A stretch of DNA of 64,000 bases from Flavobacterium xueshanense. Lineage in GTDB: Bacteria; Bacteroidota; Bacteroidia; Flavobacteriales; Flavobacteriaceae. The stretch spans positions 1-64,000 of the forward strand of contig NZ_FONQ01000018.1 in the NCBI RefSeq assembly GCF_900112975.1, given 5' to 3'. This document shows, in pieces, positions 2,022-8,499 of the stretch; the first letter of the stretch is position 1; each line of letters opens with the position of its first letter. The notes under the pieces were generated by a model. The model was not told where the DNA came from, did not search any database, and was given only the letters and a program-made list of their open reading frames with translations. A program made the translations under genes and the position numbers.

Positions 2022-2122
2022 CCCGACGGCGCGGATTTGTAATCCGTGCCCACAACGACAAGCATTAATCAAAAGAAAATGCAAGATGTGTTTCCTTCGA
2101 TCCTCGCAATAACTCAACAAAC
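2022..2122 (+). repeat. REP-like repeat, copy A (partial)
   Basis: The copy begins CGACGGCGCGGATTTGTAAT and continues into the shared body (AATCAAAAGAAAAT, then CCTCGCAATAACTC) found in four other copies in the window. The hairpin arms CGGATT and AATCCG are intact. The right-hand hairpin seen in copies C and D is missing. It lies directly before the dead trmH fragment, the same order as copy E and the intact trmH. The remaining bases from 1850 to 2021 hold no gene I can support. Confidence 0.7.
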
Positions 2123-2153
2123 CGTTAAAATCTAATTTTAGTGTACGTTTACA

Positions 2154-2330
2154 TTACCTTAAATTTTCTTCAAAATACCGTTCTTCAATTCTTTTAATAT
2201 CTTCAATTGAATTTTTGGCCTAAGACAATCTTTTTACCAAAATTTCATTTTCGGATAAATGCCAGTCAATAGTTGAATTCCAAAATCGGTTCGTTAATTT
2301 TTCAATGATTAAAATTGCAGAAATTATATT
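2154..2330 (-). pseudogene. TrmH-family RNA methyltransferase, C-terminal remnant
   Basis: Reading the minus strand gives about 58 codons that align without gaps to the C-terminus of the intact TrmH-family gene at 7837-8499. Shared blocks include LTNR, DWHLSENEIL (NWHLSENEIL in the intact copy), DIKRIE and RYFEE. The stop is in the same place. A TAG interrupts the frame where the intact gene has TGG in KRLAWAKNS. The fragment lacks the SAM-binding knot and is non-functional. Its upper end abuts and slightly overlaps the 3' end of the dehalogenase gene, so the junction is a rearrangement breakpoint. Confidence 0.85.
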
Positions 2331-3130
2331 AAAATTAGCTTCTGAGCAACTAATAAAATATTCTCTTCATTAATTTCAGGTAAATTTGCAAGAGGAAACA
2401 ATTGCTGTCCAGGACGGCTGACAAAAACCGTTTGCCAACCTGCCCAATTTGCACCGGCAACATCCCAACCATGGGCAGCTATCAACATACATTCATTCGG
2501 TTTCAATCCCATTTTTCTGGCAGCCCAATTATAAGTATCTGTATGTGGCTTGAATTTACCTACGTCTTCTATACTTAAAACATCGTCAAATAGATCATGA
2601 ATTCCCGCATATTTAAGTTGCGTTTCAACCGCTTTATTGGATGAGTTAGTGAAGGCAACCAATTTAAAACCCTCTTTTTTCAAAAGTAAGAGTGCTTCTT
2701 TTACCTCGGGATGTGCAGGCAATGATAAAATTGCGGCAACAGCATCTTTAGCTTGTTTATCCGTTATAGTAATTCCATTTTTGTGGGCAACCATCATAAG
2801 TGCAGCGGCTCCAATTGTTCCAAAATCTTGATATTGGTTTGCAACTGTGGTAACCAATGAATACTGAAGCATTGTAGTGAACCACAAGGACATCAATTCA
2901 GGACGATCGCCAAGCGCTGAGCCAATACTTTTTTTCATGCTATTAAGATCCAGCAACGTTTCATTTACATCAAAAAACAAAACGTTAGGTCTCTTAAAAT
3001 AACCAACGCTATATTCCTCACTATTGTTTTTCTCCTCTTTTACAATTAAACTAGGCGCACCAACTCCTTCCCCTCCAACTGGCAATGTGGTATTTATTAA
3101 ATTTTGATTGCTATTTTTATATTCATTCAT
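2324..3130 (-). CDS. haloacid dehalogenase type II-like HAD hydrolase
   Basis: A 268-aa HAD-superfamily protein. Motif I is FFDVNETLLD (about residues 52-61) with the nucleophilic Asp. Motif II is FTNSS (about 161-165). Motif III is the Lys in GKFKPH (about 192). The acidic tail lies near HGWDVAGANWAG, which together with TVFVSRPG is typical of type II L-2-haloacid dehalogenases. They cleave carbon-halogen bonds through an aspartyl ester, but the true substrate cannot be told. The N-terminal extension of about 45 residues is low-complexity and unusual, so a later start is possible. The 3' end runs into the trmH remnant, suggesting the gene arrived by rearrangement. Confidence 0.8.
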   Translation of the reverse strand: MNEYKNSNQNLINTTLPVGGEGVGAPSLIVKEEKNNSEEYSVGYFKRPNVLFFDVNETLLDLNSMKKSIGSALGDRPELMSLWFTTMLQYSLVTTVANQYQDFGTIGAAALMMVAHKNGITITDKQAKDAVAAILSLPAHPEVKEALLLLKKEGFKLVAFTNSSNKAVETQLKYAGIHDLFDDVLSIEDVGKFKPHTDTYNWAARKMGLKPNECMLIAAHGWDVAGANWAGWQTVFVSRPGQQLFPLANLPEINEENILLVAQKLILI

Positions 3131-3301
3131 TATTTTTCTTTTTAAATCATGCGTTAAATAAAGTGTACGACAAAGTATCTTGTTTTGCGGAAACAGTACA
3201 AGTTACATGATATTTTTTAAAATAAAGAACATAAGCATAACATTATTTAGAAGAACTATTTTACGTTTTCAGCAAAGTATCGATCTTCAATTCGGTAGTA
3301 T

Positions 3302-3518
3302 TCGATAACGAGGGTTTGCAATCCGTGCTCACAATAATAAGCACTTAATCAAAAGAAAATACGAGATGTGATTGCTTCGTTCCTCGCAATGGTCAAGAAG
3401 TGCTCAGTTATTATTTTTTAGCAACGATAACAGATAAGTAATCCTTTTAATCATTGCATAGCGATAAATAAAATCTACATTTTGAAAATTTCAAATAGGT
3501 ATCGTAAAATGTAATTGA
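3302..3518 (+). repeat. REP-like element, copy B (right hairpin absent)
   Basis: The left end is diverged (TCGATAACGAGGGTTTGCAA). The body matches copies C and D. At the right, ATTGTAA is followed almost directly by GGATCGTG. In copy C a hairpin segment of about 28 bases lies between these points. The difference marks the hairpin as a separable module. Confidence 0.75.
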
Positions 3519-3648
3519 TTATTGTAAAGGATCGTGTATTTTGTTTAAGTTATTTTTCTAAAATAAGAAAAAATAACTTTTTTTGTAATTAAAATCAGTT
3601 ATATTTATATGGAAAGTTAAAATACTATTTAATTACTAAAAAACTATT

Positions 3649-3849
3649 ATGAAAGAATTCAAAGTAGAAAGTTTAATTTATTACTCTAAATTGACTTTAG
3701 ATTCAAAGCACATTGCAAATGACTCAAAAAAAGAAATTCAGGAAAAATTAGATGAATATGCCGCAAAAGGATATAGGTTCACTACATCAACATCAACAAA
3801 TTTTGGTGCCGCAATTTATATTCATTTGTATTTTGAAAAAGATATTTAA
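3649..3849 (+). CDS. small DUF4177-like protein, copy 1
   Basis: A 66-aa soluble protein. The segment KLDEYAAKGYRFTTST resembles the EYAAxGW/YR core of DUF4177 proteins, whose role is unknown. It differs from copy 2 (4843-5043) only at residue 4, Phe here and Tyr there. The other four base differences are silent. The low ratio of replacement to silent change, beside more diverged flanks, suggests both copies are, or recently were, selected as protein. It has its own terminator 56 bp downstream. Confidence 0.7.
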   Translation: MKEFKVESLIYYSKLTLDSKHIANDSKKEIQEKLDEYAAKGYRFTTSTSTNFGAAIYIHLYFEKDI

Positions 3850-3904
3850 TCAAAATCAGATAACAATACTCTTACATAATCAAAAAATCCAGACTTAAAA
3901 ATAG

Positions 3905-3942
3905 ACCATTTCATTGTATGCTTACTTTGAAATGGTTTTTTT
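3905..3942 (+). terminator. rho-independent terminator
   Basis: ACCATTTCA at 3905-3913 pairs with TGAAATGGT at 3928-3936 and is followed by a T run. It is conserved in the second duplication unit. Confidence 0.8.
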
Positions 3943-4015
3943 ATATCCAAGTATTCGTTGTCTATATTTTAAACTGTCCGCTCTTCCAAGCACTTTTGTT
4001 TAGCAGCAACAAACC

Positions 4016-4417
4016 AATGTTTTTACTCTATGCCGCTAGTTTATAAAATAGGATTCTTTGTTCATCAAACAACACAGTCTTACAGCTTATTTGCAATGAA
4101 TAGACTTAAAATACTAAGGGTATCGAAATTCTAATATTAACATTTAAGCCATTTTAATTTAGAAGATAGACTTTTGCCATTTTACCAAAAAAACTACAAT
4201 ATCTATAGAAATTTAACATACAATAAAAGTCAAAAACACTAGTTTTATAAACTTATTCATATAAATTTATATATTAGCACTGATTTTTAAAAACGACTAA
4301 TAAAATGTATAAATTTTATCCTACTATTTTTTGTCAAAATAATTAACTTAAACCATAAAAAAAACACTTTATTACAAATGAATAATTCTGATCTGATAAA
4401 AAGAAAAAATGCAATAA
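4016..4417. other. AT-rich spacer, no gene seen
   Basis: About 400 bp between the duplication units, very AT-rich. It shows no ORF of useful length, no convincing hairpin and no match to the repeats on either side. Confidence 0.6.
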
Positions 4418-4468
4418 AAGAACTATTTCACGTTTTCAGCAAAGTATCGATCTTCAATTCGGTAATAT

Positions 4469-4724
4469 CCGATAGCACGAATTTGCAATCCGTGCCCGGA
4501 ACGTTAAACGCTTAATCAAAAGAAAATACTAGATGTGATTGCTCTGTTCCTCGCAATGACCCCGAAGTGCTCACTTTTTATTTTTAAGCAACGATAGCAG
4601 ATTAGTAATTTTTTTACTCATTGTACATCGACAAATAAAATCTGCATTTTGAAAATTCCAAACAGGTATCATAAAATATAATTGATTATTGTAACGGGCA
4701 CAGATTGCAAATCCGCACTGTCGG
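4469..4724 (+). repeat. REP-bounded MITE-like element, copy C
   Basis: The left end is CCGATAGCACGAATTTGCAA, continuing TCCGTGCCC to 4497. The right end is GGGCACAGATTGCAAATCCG, continuing CACTGTCGG to 4724. The ends are near-perfect inverted repeats of 29 bp, and each contains its own small palindrome (CGGATT/AATCCG type). The body has no ORF of note. Total length is 256 bp. The structure fits a REP doublet of the kind moved by Y1-type (RAYT) transposases, or a MITE. Confidence 0.75.
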
Positions 4725-4842
4725 ATCGTGTATCTTGTTTGAGTTATTTTTCTAAAATAAGAAAATACAACTTTTTTTGTAATCAAAACCAGTTACATTT
4801 ACATGGAAAGTTAGAACACTATTTAATTATTAAAAAATTATT

Positions 4843-5043
4843 ATGAAAGAATACAAAGTAGAAAGTTTAATTTATTACTCTAAATTGACTTTAGATTCAA
4901 AGCACATTGCAAATGACTCAAAAAAAGAAATTCAAGAAAAACTAGATGAATATGCCGCAAAAGGATATAGGTTTACTACATCAACATCAACAAATTTTGG
5001 TGCCGCAATTTATATTCATTTGTATTTTGAAAAAGACATTTAA
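4843..5043 (+). CDS. small DUF4177-like protein, copy 2
   Basis: A 66-aa near-identical paralogue of the gene at 3649 (Tyr instead of Phe at residue 4). The same KLDEYAAKGYRF core is present. The upstream region is conserved but about 10 percent diverged, so the coding sequence has stayed closer than its flanks. No membrane segment or signal peptide is seen. Function unknown. Confidence 0.7.
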   Translation: MKEYKVESLIYYSKLTLDSKHIANDSKKEIQEKLDEYAAKGYRFTTSTSTNFGAAIYIHLYFEKDI

Positions 5044-5098
5044 TCAAAATCAGACGATAATACTTTTTCCCAATTAAAAAATCCAGACTTAAAATTAG

Positions 5099-5136
5099 AC
5101 CATTTCATTGTATGCTTACTTTGAAATGGTTTTTTT
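5099..5136 (+). terminator. rho-independent terminator
   Basis: ACCATTTCA and TGAAATGGT form a stem followed by seven T. It is the duplicate of the terminator at 3905. Confidence 0.8.
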
Positions 5137-5208
5137 GTACTCATGTATTCGTGATCTATATTTTAAACTATCTGTTCTTCCAAGCACTTTTATGTAGCAG
5201 CAATAAAC

Positions 5209-5471
5209 CCGATAGGGCGGATTTGCAATCCTTGCCCATAATGATAAGCACTTAATCAAAAGAAAATACTAGATGTGATTGCTTGGTTCCTCGCAATGAC
5301 CACGAAGTACTCAGTTATTATTTTTAAGCAACGATAATAGATTAGTAATCCTTTTACTCATTGTGTACAGCGACAAATAAAATCTGCATTTTGAAAATTT
5401 CAAACAGATATTATAAAATATAATATAATTGATTATTGTAACGAGCACGGATTGCAAATCCGCACTGTCGG
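5209..5471 (+). repeat. REP-bounded MITE-like element, copy D
   Basis: The element begins CCGATAGGGCGGATTTGCAA and ends GCAAATCCGCACTGTCGG, at 263 bp. Inverted terminal hairpins and the shared body are both present. It follows duplication unit 2 directly and is not accompanied by a gene. From 5472 to 5735 no gene or clear structure is seen. Confidence 0.75.
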
Positions 5472-5727
5472 ATTTTGCCGTAAATAACTCCGTTTACGAT
5501 TTCCTGTAATAATCCTGAGATGAGATAATATATGTTTTAGAATAAATTAATTACCGTTTATTTTATAAGTATTTTCAGCGATTTATTTATATATTTGAAA
5601 ATAGATAAAACCACGCTCCGCAAAGTATCCCTGAAAACACATGAGTTTTTCGTAAACGCTGCGCAAATGTCTCTGACTTTGCGCAATTTTCAGGAATTGA
5701 TAATATATTAAAACTTTATAAAATGGC

Positions 5728-5766
5728 TGGCTTTCATCAGCCCGCTGTACTACCAGAACGTTATGC
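5728..5766 (+). other. attC-like right half (GAACGTTATGC)
   Basis: CAGCCCGCTGTAC is followed by GAACGTTATGC, the same arrangement (CCCGCTGT, about 10 bases, ACGTTAT) seen at 1126-1149. It lies immediately before the next small gene. A left half cannot be defined here. Confidence 0.35.
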
Positions 5767-5789
5767 AAAACCAAAACAACTCTTTAAAT

Positions 5790-6233
5790 ATGAAAAAAAT
5801 ATTATTTGCAATTTTACTATTATTTTCATTCAGCATAAATGCGCAACATAATAAAAATGAAATTAAGAAAGATGCATTACAAATTCTTAAGAAAATTAAT
5901 TTCGAATATAAAAATGGAAGTCTAACCACGGAACAAATCTCTGAACTCTTTTGTGAAAAAATTTATTGTTCTGTTTGTGACACAGAGGACTATGATGATG
6001 ACTATTTAATTCAAAACCAAAAAATTTTAAAAAATTTTAAAAAAATTGCTGCTTTCTTAAACTTACGCAAACTAAAAAAAAGCAGAATAACTTACGATGA
6101 AGAGAGGAAAGAATATACATTAAGTTATCAATTAGTTAGACCTACAGCCAAATTTGAAGGTTCGAGCGCTCTATTCAGTTTTATATTAGAAAATGGAAAA
6201 CTTAAATTGAATAGTATTCAAACAATTCCTTAA
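5790..6233 (+). CDS. hypothetical secreted protein
   Basis: 147 aa from the ATG at 5790. This start opens directly into a signal peptide (MKKILFAILLLFSFSINAQ) with a likely cleavage after AQ. The ATG at 5763 is part of the ACGTTATG junction and would add nine polar residues before the signal, so it is unlikely. The mature part is about 128 residues, charged, with one CEKIYCSVC cluster of three cysteines. No family recognised. Its position right after an attC-like half site is typical of a gene cassette. Confidence 0.6.
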   Translation: MKKILFAILLLFSFSINAQHNKNEIKKDALQILKKINFEYKNGSLTTEQISELFCEKIYCSVCDTEDYDDDYLIQNQKILKNFKKIAAFLNLRKLKKSRITYDEERKEYTLSYQLVRPTAKFEGSSALFSFILENGKLKLNSIQTIP

Positions 6234-6342
6234 ATACGCTACAGGTCACAGCTAAATCCTAATTACAGACGTAACACGAACAATAACAGTAAGATAACGC
6301 AACCAAATACCTTTTTTACTATCTTTATAAAAAGATTTTCAA

Positions 6343-6834
6343 ATGAAAAAAATAGTACTTCTCCTGCTGGTTTCATTTCTACTTGTTTCTTGTTGGCCAA
6401 CTACAGATAATGGTGAATTTGCTCGACAAGAATACAAACCCGTGATTATAGCCCGTACCGCTTTGGAAAGCTCCATTGCCTTTCAAAATTCGCAACCCAT
6501 CATAAAAGCGGGAAAAATTTACATCAAGGACGATTTAATGTTTATCAATGATGTGAATAAAGGTTTTCATGTTTATGATTACACTGATCCCAATAAACCT
6601 ATACGATTGCATTTTATAAAAGCTCCGGGTGCTACAGACCTAGCCATCAAAGGCAATACCTTGTATATCAACCAAGCAGTAGATCTGGTCACTGCCACTT
6701 TCAATCCTGCCACTAAAAAATTTACTGTTACCAACAGAAATAGATATGTGTTTCCGCAAAAGCAAGCTCCAAACGGCTCAAATGCCTACACTAAAGAAAA
6801 TGAAATAATAATCGATTGGACTTTAATCAAGTAA
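6343..6834 (+). CDS. LVIVD-like repeat lipoprotein, short
   Basis: 163 aa with a lipoprotein signal (LVSFLLVSC, acyl Cys at about residue 17). The body carries beta-propeller-like strand patterns with IYIKDDLMFINDVNKGFHVYDYTDPNKPIRL, written here only as the block around FHVYDYTDP, which resembles the LVIVD repeat. It is short for the family, with one or two repeats. It is followed by a related lipoprotein three bases downstream, so the two probably form an operon. Each has its own signal peptide, so this is not one gene split by a frameshift. Confidence 0.7.
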   Translation: MKKIVLLLLVSFLLVSCWPTTDNGEFARQEYKPVIIARTALESSIAFQNSQPIIKAGKIYIKDDLMFINDVNKGFHVYDYTDPNKPIRLHFIKAPGATDLAIKGNTLYINQAVDLVTATFNPATKKFTVTNRNRYVFPQKQAPNGSNAYTKENEIIIDWTLIK

Positions 6835-6837
6835 CAA

Positions 6838-7566
6838 ATGAAAAAAATTATATCCTTCGTATTAATAGTGTTTATAATCGGTTGCTCGGACAGTGACAGC
6901 GCGCAAAACAGCGACATAGGGCAAGGCGGTTCACTTGCTGTTTTTGCTATAAAAGGCAATTATTTATACGGCGTAGACCAAATGAAATTGAATGTATTCT
7001 CGTTAATCGATCCCGAAAAGCCCGTAAAAGTCAATGAGATTCCGATAGGTTTTGACATTGAAACACTATTTTCATTTGGGGATAATTTATTTATTGGATC
7101 TAGAAATGGAATGTTTATCTATTCGATTGCAAATCCGGAAAACCCAACGAAATTATCAAGCGTACAACACTTTACTGCTTGTGATCCAGTCATTGCCAAT
7201 AGCACGCACTCCTATGTGACATTAAACTCGAACGCAACCTGTGGCAACAACACTAACGTTTTGCAGGTTTATGACACCAAAGATCTTACGAAACCAAAAT
7301 TAATTCATAGCAGAACACTCTCTCAACCTAAAGGCATCAGTTTTTACACCGCTGATTATTTACTGGTTTGCGATGACGTTATCAAAATATTTAACATTCA
7401 AAATCCTGTAGAACCCGTTTTAGTGCATGCCATTGACAAAAATTGTTTTGATTTAATTATTCGAGAGAATACATTGTTTGCAATCGGGAACAACGGAGTA
7501 TATCGCTATAAAATGAACCCAAATAATATAAAAGACATACTATTAGAGAGTGAAACAAAGTTTTAA
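6838..7566 (+). CDS. LVIVD repeat-containing lipoprotein
   Basis: 242 aa with lipobox IIGCSDS (Cys at about residue 16). Several repeats of the type LNVFSLIDPEKPVKV, MFIYSIANPENPTKL and IKIFNIQNPVEPVLV follow. These are LVIVD repeats expected to fold as a beta-propeller at the cell surface or periplasm. No enzymatic residues are recognised. It starts three bases after the preceding related gene. The two probably arose by duplication and act together, but their ligand is unknown. Confidence 0.8.
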   Translation: MKKIISFVLIVFIIGCSDSDSAQNSDIGQGGSLAVFAIKGNYLYGVDQMKLNVFSLIDPEKPVKVNEIPIGFDIETLFSFGDNLFIGSRNGMFIYSIANPENPTKLSSVQHFTACDPVIANSTHSYVTLNSNATCGNNTNVLQVYDTKDLTKPKLIHSRTLSQPKGISFYTADYLLVCDDVIKIFNIQNPVEPVLVHAIDKNCFDLIIRENTLFAIGNNGVYRYKMNPNNIKDILLESETKF

Positions 7567-7586
7567 TGTTCTTTTTTTGAACTAGT

Positions 7587-7637
7587 AGGTATGTAAATCT
7601 AAAAAAGATACCTACAAGGTTTTGGAAACCTTGCAGG
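7587..7637 (+). repeat. overlapping hairpins after the LVIVD pair
   Basis: AGGTAT at 7587 pairs with ATACCT ending near 7613. CAAGGTTT pairs with AAACCTTG at about 7615-7633. There is no strong T run after the second stem, so this may be a repeat-type palindrome rather than a terminator. Confidence 0.5.
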
Positions 7638-7678
7638 ATTATGAACAGCAATGAAAATCAACACTTTAACAATTGCAC

Positions 7679-7800
7679 CCGATTGCGCGGATTTGCGCAC
7701 GAACGAAGTTAACTGACGAAGTAATTCGTATCCACAACAATATGCAATTAAACAAAAGAAAATAGTAGTTGTAATTGCTTCGTTTCTCGCGATGACTCAG
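7679..7800 (+). repeat. REP-like repeat, copy E (diverged)
   Basis: The copy begins CCGATTGCGCGGATTTGCGC. It has an inserted stretch, then the shared body (AAACAAAAGAAAATAGTAGT, TTGCTTCGTTTCTCGC). It lies just downstream of the intact trmH 3' end, mirroring copy A beside the dead fragment. Confidence 0.65.
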
Positions 7801-7836
7801 CAAACCTTAAAAATCCAGTTCTAACGTTTGTTTACA

Positions 7837-8499
7837 CTATCTTGGGGTTTCCTCAAAATACCGTGCTTCAATTCGCTTGATGTCTTTTATTGAATTTTTG
7901 GCCCAAGCTAAACGCTTTTCTAAAATTTCGTTTTCAGATAAATGCCAATTAATTTCGGAATTGCGCAATCGATTCGTCAGGTTTTGAATGATGATTGCCG
8001 CCGAAACCGATATATTTAAACTCTCAGTAAAACCCACCATAGGGATTTTAAGAAAACCATCGGCGCGTTTCAAAATTTCTTCGGATAATCCGTCTCTTTC
8101 TGTTCCAAAAAATAAAGCGCTGGGTTTAGAAATGTCAAAATCTTCCATCAAACAATCATTTTCATGTGGAGTAGTAGCAATGATTTGGTAGCCTTTGCTT
8201 TTTAACGTGTCCACACAATTCGTAATGTTGTCGAACGTGTTGATGTCAACCCATTTTTGGGCACCCATCGCAATTTCTTTGTCGATACTTTTTCCGTACC
8301 GTTGCTCGATAACGTTCAATTCCTGAATTCCAAAAATCTCACAACTGCGCATTACAGCACTCGTATTGTGCATTTGAAAAATATCCTCGACAACAATCGT
8401 AAAATGCTTGGTTCTGTTTTCCAATACTTTCAAGAATTTTTCTTTGCGGTTATCAGTCAGGATATTTTCGAGAAAAGCGAGGTAATCGATGTCGACCAT
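7837..8499 (-). CDS. TrmH-family (SpoU) RNA 2'-O-methyltransferase
   Basis: 220 aa from the ATG at 8499. SpoU motif 1 is HNTSAVMRSCEIFG (Asn and Arg conserved). Motif 2 is ALFFGTERDGLSEE. Motif 3 is IPMVGFTESLNISVSAAI. These are the SAM-binding trefoil-knot elements. The target is probably a tRNA ribose, position unknown. The frame is open to 8820, but the added residues have no family similarity and a TATTTTTG promoter element lies at 8517-8524, so I use the shorter start. A dead copy of its 3' end lies at 2154-2330. The sirtuin gene is divergent to it. Confidence 0.9.
   Translation of the reverse strand: MVDIDYLAFLENILTDNRKEKFLKVLENRTKHFTIVVEDIFQMHNTSAVMRSCEIFGIQELNVIEQRYGKSIDKEIAMGAQKWVDINTFDNITNCVDTLKSKGYQIIATTPHENDCLMEDFDISKPSALFFGTERDGLSEEILKRADGFLKIPMVGFTESLNISVSAAIIIQNLTNRLRNSEINWHLSENEILEKRLAWAKNSIKDIKRIEARYFEETPR

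Follow-up and report, generated by a model that had tools for sequence, protein, structure and literature searches.

The first 64,000 nucleotides of contig 27 of the 3.47 Mb Flavobacterium xueshanense genome, here called the window (the other contigs are named C10, C13, C16, C18, C26 and C28), carry five related repeats, A to E, on the 3' side of a SpoU/TrmH-family methylase gene. We propose that these repeats are very probably non-autonomous palindromic elements of a RAYT/REP-like system of Flavobacterium (REP, repetitive extragenic palindrome; RAYT, REP-associated tyrosine transposase), whose modules spread in the past and are mostly relics here. All five copies lie on the forward strand, are intergenic by eye, and open with a hairpin, H1, followed by a linker and a second palindrome, H2 (GATTGCTTCGTTCCTCGCAATGAC). 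Copy A (2023-2115) consists of H1 (2023-2051), the linker and a degenerate H2 (2091-2115, too degenerate for the H2 search pattern), and adjoins a methylase 3' fragment. Copy B (3302-3525) has H1 at 3302-3330, H2 at 3370-3392 and a second half; copies C (4469-4724) and D (5209-5471) have H1 at 4469-4497 and 5209-5237, H2 at 4537-4561 and 5277-5301, the second half, and an inverted right H1 at 4696-4724 and 5443-5471, respectively. Copy E (7679-7798) adjoins the 3' end of the full methylase gene; its H1 (7679-7733) measures 55 nt, not 29 nt, owing to an insert, and is followed by the linker and H2 (7773-7798). A sequence-only reading had placed related copies at 2022, 3302, 4469, 5209 and 7679, and all five are borne out, A starting at 2023. 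The H1 pattern (≤3 mismatches) matched eight times in the window against 0.11 expected from shuffling, and every match of the three patterns searched falls within 2-8 kb. Both ends are present in C and D, as that reading had it, in the form of 29-nt inverted copies with five and four mismatches, respectively. The right hairpin of B is indeed absent, and precisely so apart from one extra A at the joint (ATTGTAA-A-GGATCGTG in B, ATTGTAA-CGGGCAC...CTGTC-GGATCGTG at the same place in C).

Copies A and E had been thought to keep only the left part of the element. A search of 299 genomes with copy D returned single hairpins and, repeatedly, matches to the first ~96 bases of D, i.e. a unit made of H1, a linker of mostly 34-39 bp and H2. 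Both A and E stop where this unit stops in other loci and species; truncation is therefore rejected, and each represents a shorter element in full. The insert in H1 of copy E contains ACGAACGAAGTTAACTGACGAAGTAA, and comparable inserts were seen in H1-like hairpins beside transposases in two other loci (L039 and L051), so that hairpins within the loop or arm of H1 may be a recurrent variant.

H1 (consensus CGATAGCGCGGATTTGCAATCCGTGCCCA) is about 29 nt long, with a foot that is mostly GATAG or GTTAG ([AT]TAG) in place of the canonical GT[AG]G, a stem of 9 bp and a loop of 3 nt. Across 33 variants of H1, pairing is kept in 158 of 165 inner stem cells, and both sides of the stem carry changes; the pattern fixed the outer stem and left only 13 inner bases free, and one of 19 variants (L039) resembles a chance match and was kept in. 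The predicted folding energy is -7.9 kcal/mol for H1 and -5.7 kcal/mol for its complement. Across the genome, CGGATTTGNAATCCGTGC (≤2 mismatches) gave 20 matches on eight contigs (one hairpin being counted twice, once per strand) and its reversed control none, while a second stem subtype, CAGTTTTGCAAACTG, gave 11, two C18 places being also among the 20. Besides standing alone, H1 forms inverted pairs, opens the ~96-bp unit on the left and is part of composites of ~255 bp. It is thus a short imperfect palindrome in many genomic copies, as a RAYT-cognate REP should be. Two inverted copies of one REP around a short spacer, which define a REPIN (REP doublet forming hairpins), are found in a pair on C18 and in pairs of ~141 bp in G110 and G147; the partners in the H1-H2 units differ from each other. 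At genus level, H1 (≤1 mismatch) is present in 89 of 150 Flavobacterium genomes, with no match to the control.

A PF01797 profile search of the genome returned three Y1 transposase matches. One, on C13, is a RAYT-like gene flanked by H1 in inverted orientation, at 184876 (+) and 185568 (-). It is the one genome match, and the only copy found there, of this transposase type at E ≤ 1e-15. Its frame meets a TAA after 132 codons, ahead of the tyrosine motif, and a YIHNNP motif stands in the same frame past this stop, which is possibly an assembly error. The SHLH motif of C13 was considered as a second sign of a dead gene and dismissed, because most members of the group have SH[IL]H; the in-frame TAA alone remains. 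An intact homologue, L034, scores 101.2 on the REP-associated transposase profile NF047646 (cut-off 80) and 29.7 on the IS200 profile (under its cut-off of 55). On C16, a right H1 follows what appears by eye to be the end of such a transposase gene. The sequence-only reading had supposed a REP-bounded, non-autonomous family spread over the genome, and had proposed to look for the hairpins genome-wide and for a RAYT gene carrying them. Both searches were positive, and confinement to a single locus without a transposase bearing the same ends is excluded by the eight contigs and the C13 gene. A second Y1 gene (L032, ~1443-1850; C10:89942) has an in-frame TGA and is followed by other short palindromes (by eye). 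An intact IS200-type gene (L026, 1538-1975 onward; C16:223537-224590) scores 79.7 bits against the cut-off of 55, and after it comes an array of CCAACCGTTTCAACGGTTGG palindromes whose five places are all the genome's matches.

The association of H1 with this transposase extends across the genus. Of 150 genus genomes, 71 have a match to the C13 protein at E ≤ 1e-15. Inverted H1 copies flank 24 of 31 transposases of the C13 group, delimited at 60% identity, and none of 38 from other groups, these 38 being regions chosen from the list of C13-protein matches; H1 on one side was found in one of the 38, and H1 on both sides in the wrong orientation in one of the 31. Most other-group loci carry different inverted hairpins, of five kinds by eye (for instance CTGGTGCTCGTTTGCAACGAG, GCTGCGCAAA..TTTGCGC and GCTAGCGCGAGCGTCCCGCTCGTG). 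The abundance of H1 follows the same division. Its median count is 5.5 in the 30 genomes with a close match (at least 170 bits; 28 have any H1), 1 in 41 genomes with weaker matches only (among them G102, whose match is partial at 71%), and 0 in 79 genomes without a match (Mann-Whitney p 2.9e-9 for close-match genomes versus the rest, on counts typed by hand and uncorrected for phylogeny).

Several observations weigh against our proposal. The C13 frame itself reaches only 59.7 on NF047646, under the cut-off of 80, and the transposase groups were defined by identity and hairpin type, not by a tree. In seven of the 31 close loci, H1 is missing from at least one side at the threshold used; three of them (L040, L049, L055) have stem or loop variants, and in the rest H1 is present on one side or falls just outside the limit. 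H1 is also present in 38 of the 79 genomes without a transposase match, G123 holding 17 hairpins, and in 23 of the 41 with other groups only; the link between H1 and the transposase is therefore strong, but not exclusive. Lastly, no two-sided empty site was found among the junction comparisons of the window copies. A different reading is that the hairpins are kept as RNA signals, such as terminators or stabilisers of mRNA, and are no transposon ends. They do adjoin gene ends, for example that of the methylase gene, and such roles are proposed for REPs in the available part of PMC3733652. However, H1 is inverted around one transposase group and other hairpins take this place around other groups, which makes a role as RNA signals in place of transposon ends highly improbable.

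H2 is a weakly folding hairpin, with a continuous stem of 5 bp and a loop of 10 nt. As the terminal hairpin of a transposase element it was rejected: in the 70 scanned loci (≤4 mismatches) it turned up in L053, L112, L113 and the unit loci L132 to L135, but never as an inverted pair flanking a gene. Its pairing with H1 is oriented. The exact H1-to-H2 pattern, which matches none of the units of this genome (each is off by at least one base), occurs at 14 places in 10 of 398 genomes; at two of these places (G078, G273) the gap is long and the match seems unrelated. With H2 reversed, the pattern occurs at one place in the 398. A scan of named genomes gave 25 stretches. Eleven, from Flavobacterium or Flavobacteriales, hold 12 matches, and by eye H1 or a variant of it accompanies 11 of them; the gaps, in the pattern's terms, are 41-42 (seven), 37-38 (four) and 30 (one). 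In the other 14 stretches H1 is absent, and the matches resemble chance hits or lone H2. The fetched loci, selected for H1, H2 or transposase so that their rates are not genus averages, contain 38 listed units in 17 flank clusters. Two of these units are doubtful (L166 is without a real H1, L034 has an odd linker of 57 bp), and clusters merge where they have element halves or methylase fragments in common. A hairpin of 8 bp or more precedes H2 by 20-90 bp at 26 of 76 distinct H2 places, versus 9 of 76 for the mirror window on its other side. Of the 26 hairpins, 22 are by eye of known types, 20 of them H1 and two, both in G143, a type belonging to another RAYT group (GCTAGCGCGAGCGT..CGCTCGTGC), which flanks other transposases and is paired with H2 in the same orientation. 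Three tandem H1-H2 units spaced by ~100 bp lie in G200 (L248, ~3190-3480). Some genomes are counted twice, G178 and F. ranwuense L162 being identical where compared and G007 and F. caseinilyticum sharing a unit; and the units of G007, G200, G291, G293 and G180 and one of G051 were not accepted as independent insertions, all lying within ~6 kb of the same methylase 3' end.

These results allow two accounts of the unit. It may be no mobile entity at all, H1 having inserted beside an existing H2 or having been lost from some units. Lone H2 is common (11 of the 19 genome matches have no H1 upstream, eight have one), its fold is weak, and in three genomes (G070, G113 and G036; loci L245, L249 and L250) H2 stands alone, 65 bp from the methylase 3' end, where copy E has H1-H2. 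Against this speak the nearly fixed linker (34-39 bp in most of the 38 units), the many flanking contexts, the tandem array in G200 and the orientation of 14 places versus one, and we hold this account for a serious possibility, short of an even chance. Alternatively, and still more tentatively, the unit could be a chimeric REPIN, i.e. a mobile pair with outward feet that combines one RAYT-cognate REP with one palindrome resembling the CGTC-tagged REPs. The pairing of H2 with the hairpin of a second RAYT group in G143 is in line with such a chimera. If it were true, CGTC-like repeats, which are reported to be transposase-less, would spread on a REP borrowed from any RAYT that the genome happens to have.

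A further stretch, the second half of ~165 bp, follows the unit in B, C, D and two C28 copies and ends in an inverted H1 except in B; C, D and the two C28 copies are thus the composites of ~255 bp. The second half of D also has matches inside the inverted H1 pairs of G110 and G147, which suggests that the long form may be an H1-H2 unit fused to part of such a pair. Two ends could be read against relatives. The left end of D is CAATAAACC|CGATAG, compared with CAACAAACC|AATG after the other copy of a neighbouring open reading frame (ORF), and the right end of C is CTGTC|GGATCGT, compared with ACAAAT|GGATCGT in G007 and G200; no target duplication is visible at these one-sided junctions. The right H1 common to C and D and absent in B is bordered by CGG repeats in C, and slippage between these could possibly have removed it from B. 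A perfect hairpin of another kind, GCTGCGCAAATGTCTCTGACTTTGCGC, stands at 5658-5684, 190 bp past copy D; it is found at six places in the genome, one on C26 beside H1, and its type flanks another RAYT group elsewhere.

The locus itself has a history of duplication. The full methylase gene (7837-8499, minus strand; PF00588, 119.9 bits; start codon by eye) has the repeats on its 3' side, and a displaced methylase 3' fragment was located by sequence comparison at 2164-2334 on the minus strand. A two-copy block (3252-5208, plus strand; approximate limits from alignments) contains a methylase 3'-end stub, an element (B or C) and an ORF of 66 amino acids (3649-3846 and 4843-5040; DUF4177 20.3 bits, under the cut-off of 25). 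Copies A and E share a duplicated methylase 3' end (2064-2309 versus 7747-7992, 76%), and the duplication in which B and C lie takes in the 66-aa ORF (85% over 283 nt, 95% over 300 nt). The five copies are therefore not five independent insertions, and they seem to go back to about three, which duplication then multiplied. In two other species (G178, G241) copy A is at the same place, followed by the methylase 3' fragment, a HAD-type hydrolase gene (PF00702) and the methylase gene, and B to E are absent; the window has ~4.5 kb extra between the hydrolase and methylase genes, opening with the methylase 3'-end stub against copy B. In G007, G200, G293 and F. sandaracinum, the 66-aa ORF (98% identical in the last two) again has units nearby, and the stretch that follows (genes at 6297-7203, lipoproteins by eye) is found in G007, G293 and F. 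sandaracinum. H1 or H2 was found within the up to 8 kb covered on the methylase 3' side in 13 of 30 chosen genomes, counted without a control region, the genomes having been picked partly for holding hairpins, so that the rate is not a genus average. A palindrome, CTACAAGGTTTTGGAAACCTTGCAGG (7608-7640), precedes copy E and has similar counterparts near the same gene in G291. Taken together, the gene order in G178 and G241, the shared insert blocks and the neighbouring hairpins in relatives point to an old repeat-rich spot, probably reshaped by duplication and exchange. We consider it reasonably probable that the cluster at 2022-7800 owes little to transposition and much to strain recombination and duplication at the repeat-rich 3' side of this gene, as the A/E and B/C duplications, the absence of B to E in G178 and G241 and the insert blocks near units in relatives indicate. 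However, the same elements are present on other contigs and the junction of D is readable against sequence without D. Recombination accounts for the cluster, not for the origin of the elements, and is largely a complement to the RAYT/REP-like system proposed above.

Within that system, the better-folding strand of H1 would, when single-stranded, be bound and cut near its foot by a transposase of the C13 group, which would have spread H1 modules in the past. Since the cognate gene is interrupted in this genome, its copies would mostly be relics, multiplied at the locus by duplication and exchange, and B would have lost its right hairpin by deletion. The family had been supposed to be still generating rearrangements here, which is not supported: the only cognate gene found carries an in-frame TAA, copy A is shared with two other species and the duplicated copies have diverged, although these three points are no proof of inactivity.

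The elements resemble several known systems and differ from each of them. With the REPINs and RAYTs of PMC8049555, as far as the accessible text describes them, they share inverted REP pairs, a short spacer and a cognate Y1 transposase nearby; here, the copies per genome are few, the foot is [AT]TAG, and there are pairs of two different palindromes. IS200/IS605 elements likewise have a Y1/HuH transposase and hairpins near their ends; they insert next to a fixed target without duplicating it, with which our one-sided junctions, showing no target duplication, may be compatible. However, the end hairpins here are inverted copies of each other and L034 scores as REP-associated, not as IS200. CGTC-tagged REPs, in the accessible portion of PMC3733652, show no association with transposase genes. 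Read backwards, H2 is GTCATTGCGAGG..GAAGCAATC, the tag being followed by AT; this tag is mostly AGTC in Flavobacterium units and CGTC in L166, where H2 forms a CGTC-tagged dimer, the tags of CGTC REPs being CGTC, TGTC and CCTC. H2 differs from the CGTC-tagged REPs described in that portion in its stem of 5 bp and loop of 10 nt (8-9 bp and 4-5 nt there) and in being regularly joined to a RAYT-cognate hairpin; because of its stem it was not filed under the CGTC REPs and is called CGTC-like. In a literature search that left most subscription journals outside its reach, neither the Flavobacterium H1 hairpin nor RAYT REPs paired with CGTC-like palindromes were found described, and the oriented H1-H2 chimera, with CGTC-like palindromes paired with hairpins of two RAYT groups, was not found in print. 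The analysis names a recurrent type of short intergenic repeat for the annotation of Flavobacterium genomes and offers a testable route by which palindromes without their own transposase could spread. A further known system close to the one described here is TnpA-Y1 subclass 2.6, which the available text of PMC6006769 describes as mainly from Bacteroidetes, with atypical flanking hairpins lacking the GT[AG]G foot and copies elsewhere in the genome. The same features are seen here, together with the WQ (30 of 31 group members) and YIH[QN]NP motifs (22 of 31; YIH[TS]NP in four, no match in five, including interrupted or partial frames). In place of the NH[LIV]H of the subclass, the group has mostly SH[IL]H (NHIH in three of 31), and because of this motif the transposase was not filed under subclass 2.6. 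RAYT-like transposases with atypical hairpins in Bacteroidetes are thus already published in that source; our results supply sequences for such hairpins and show, within one genus, how hairpin and transposase match group by group.

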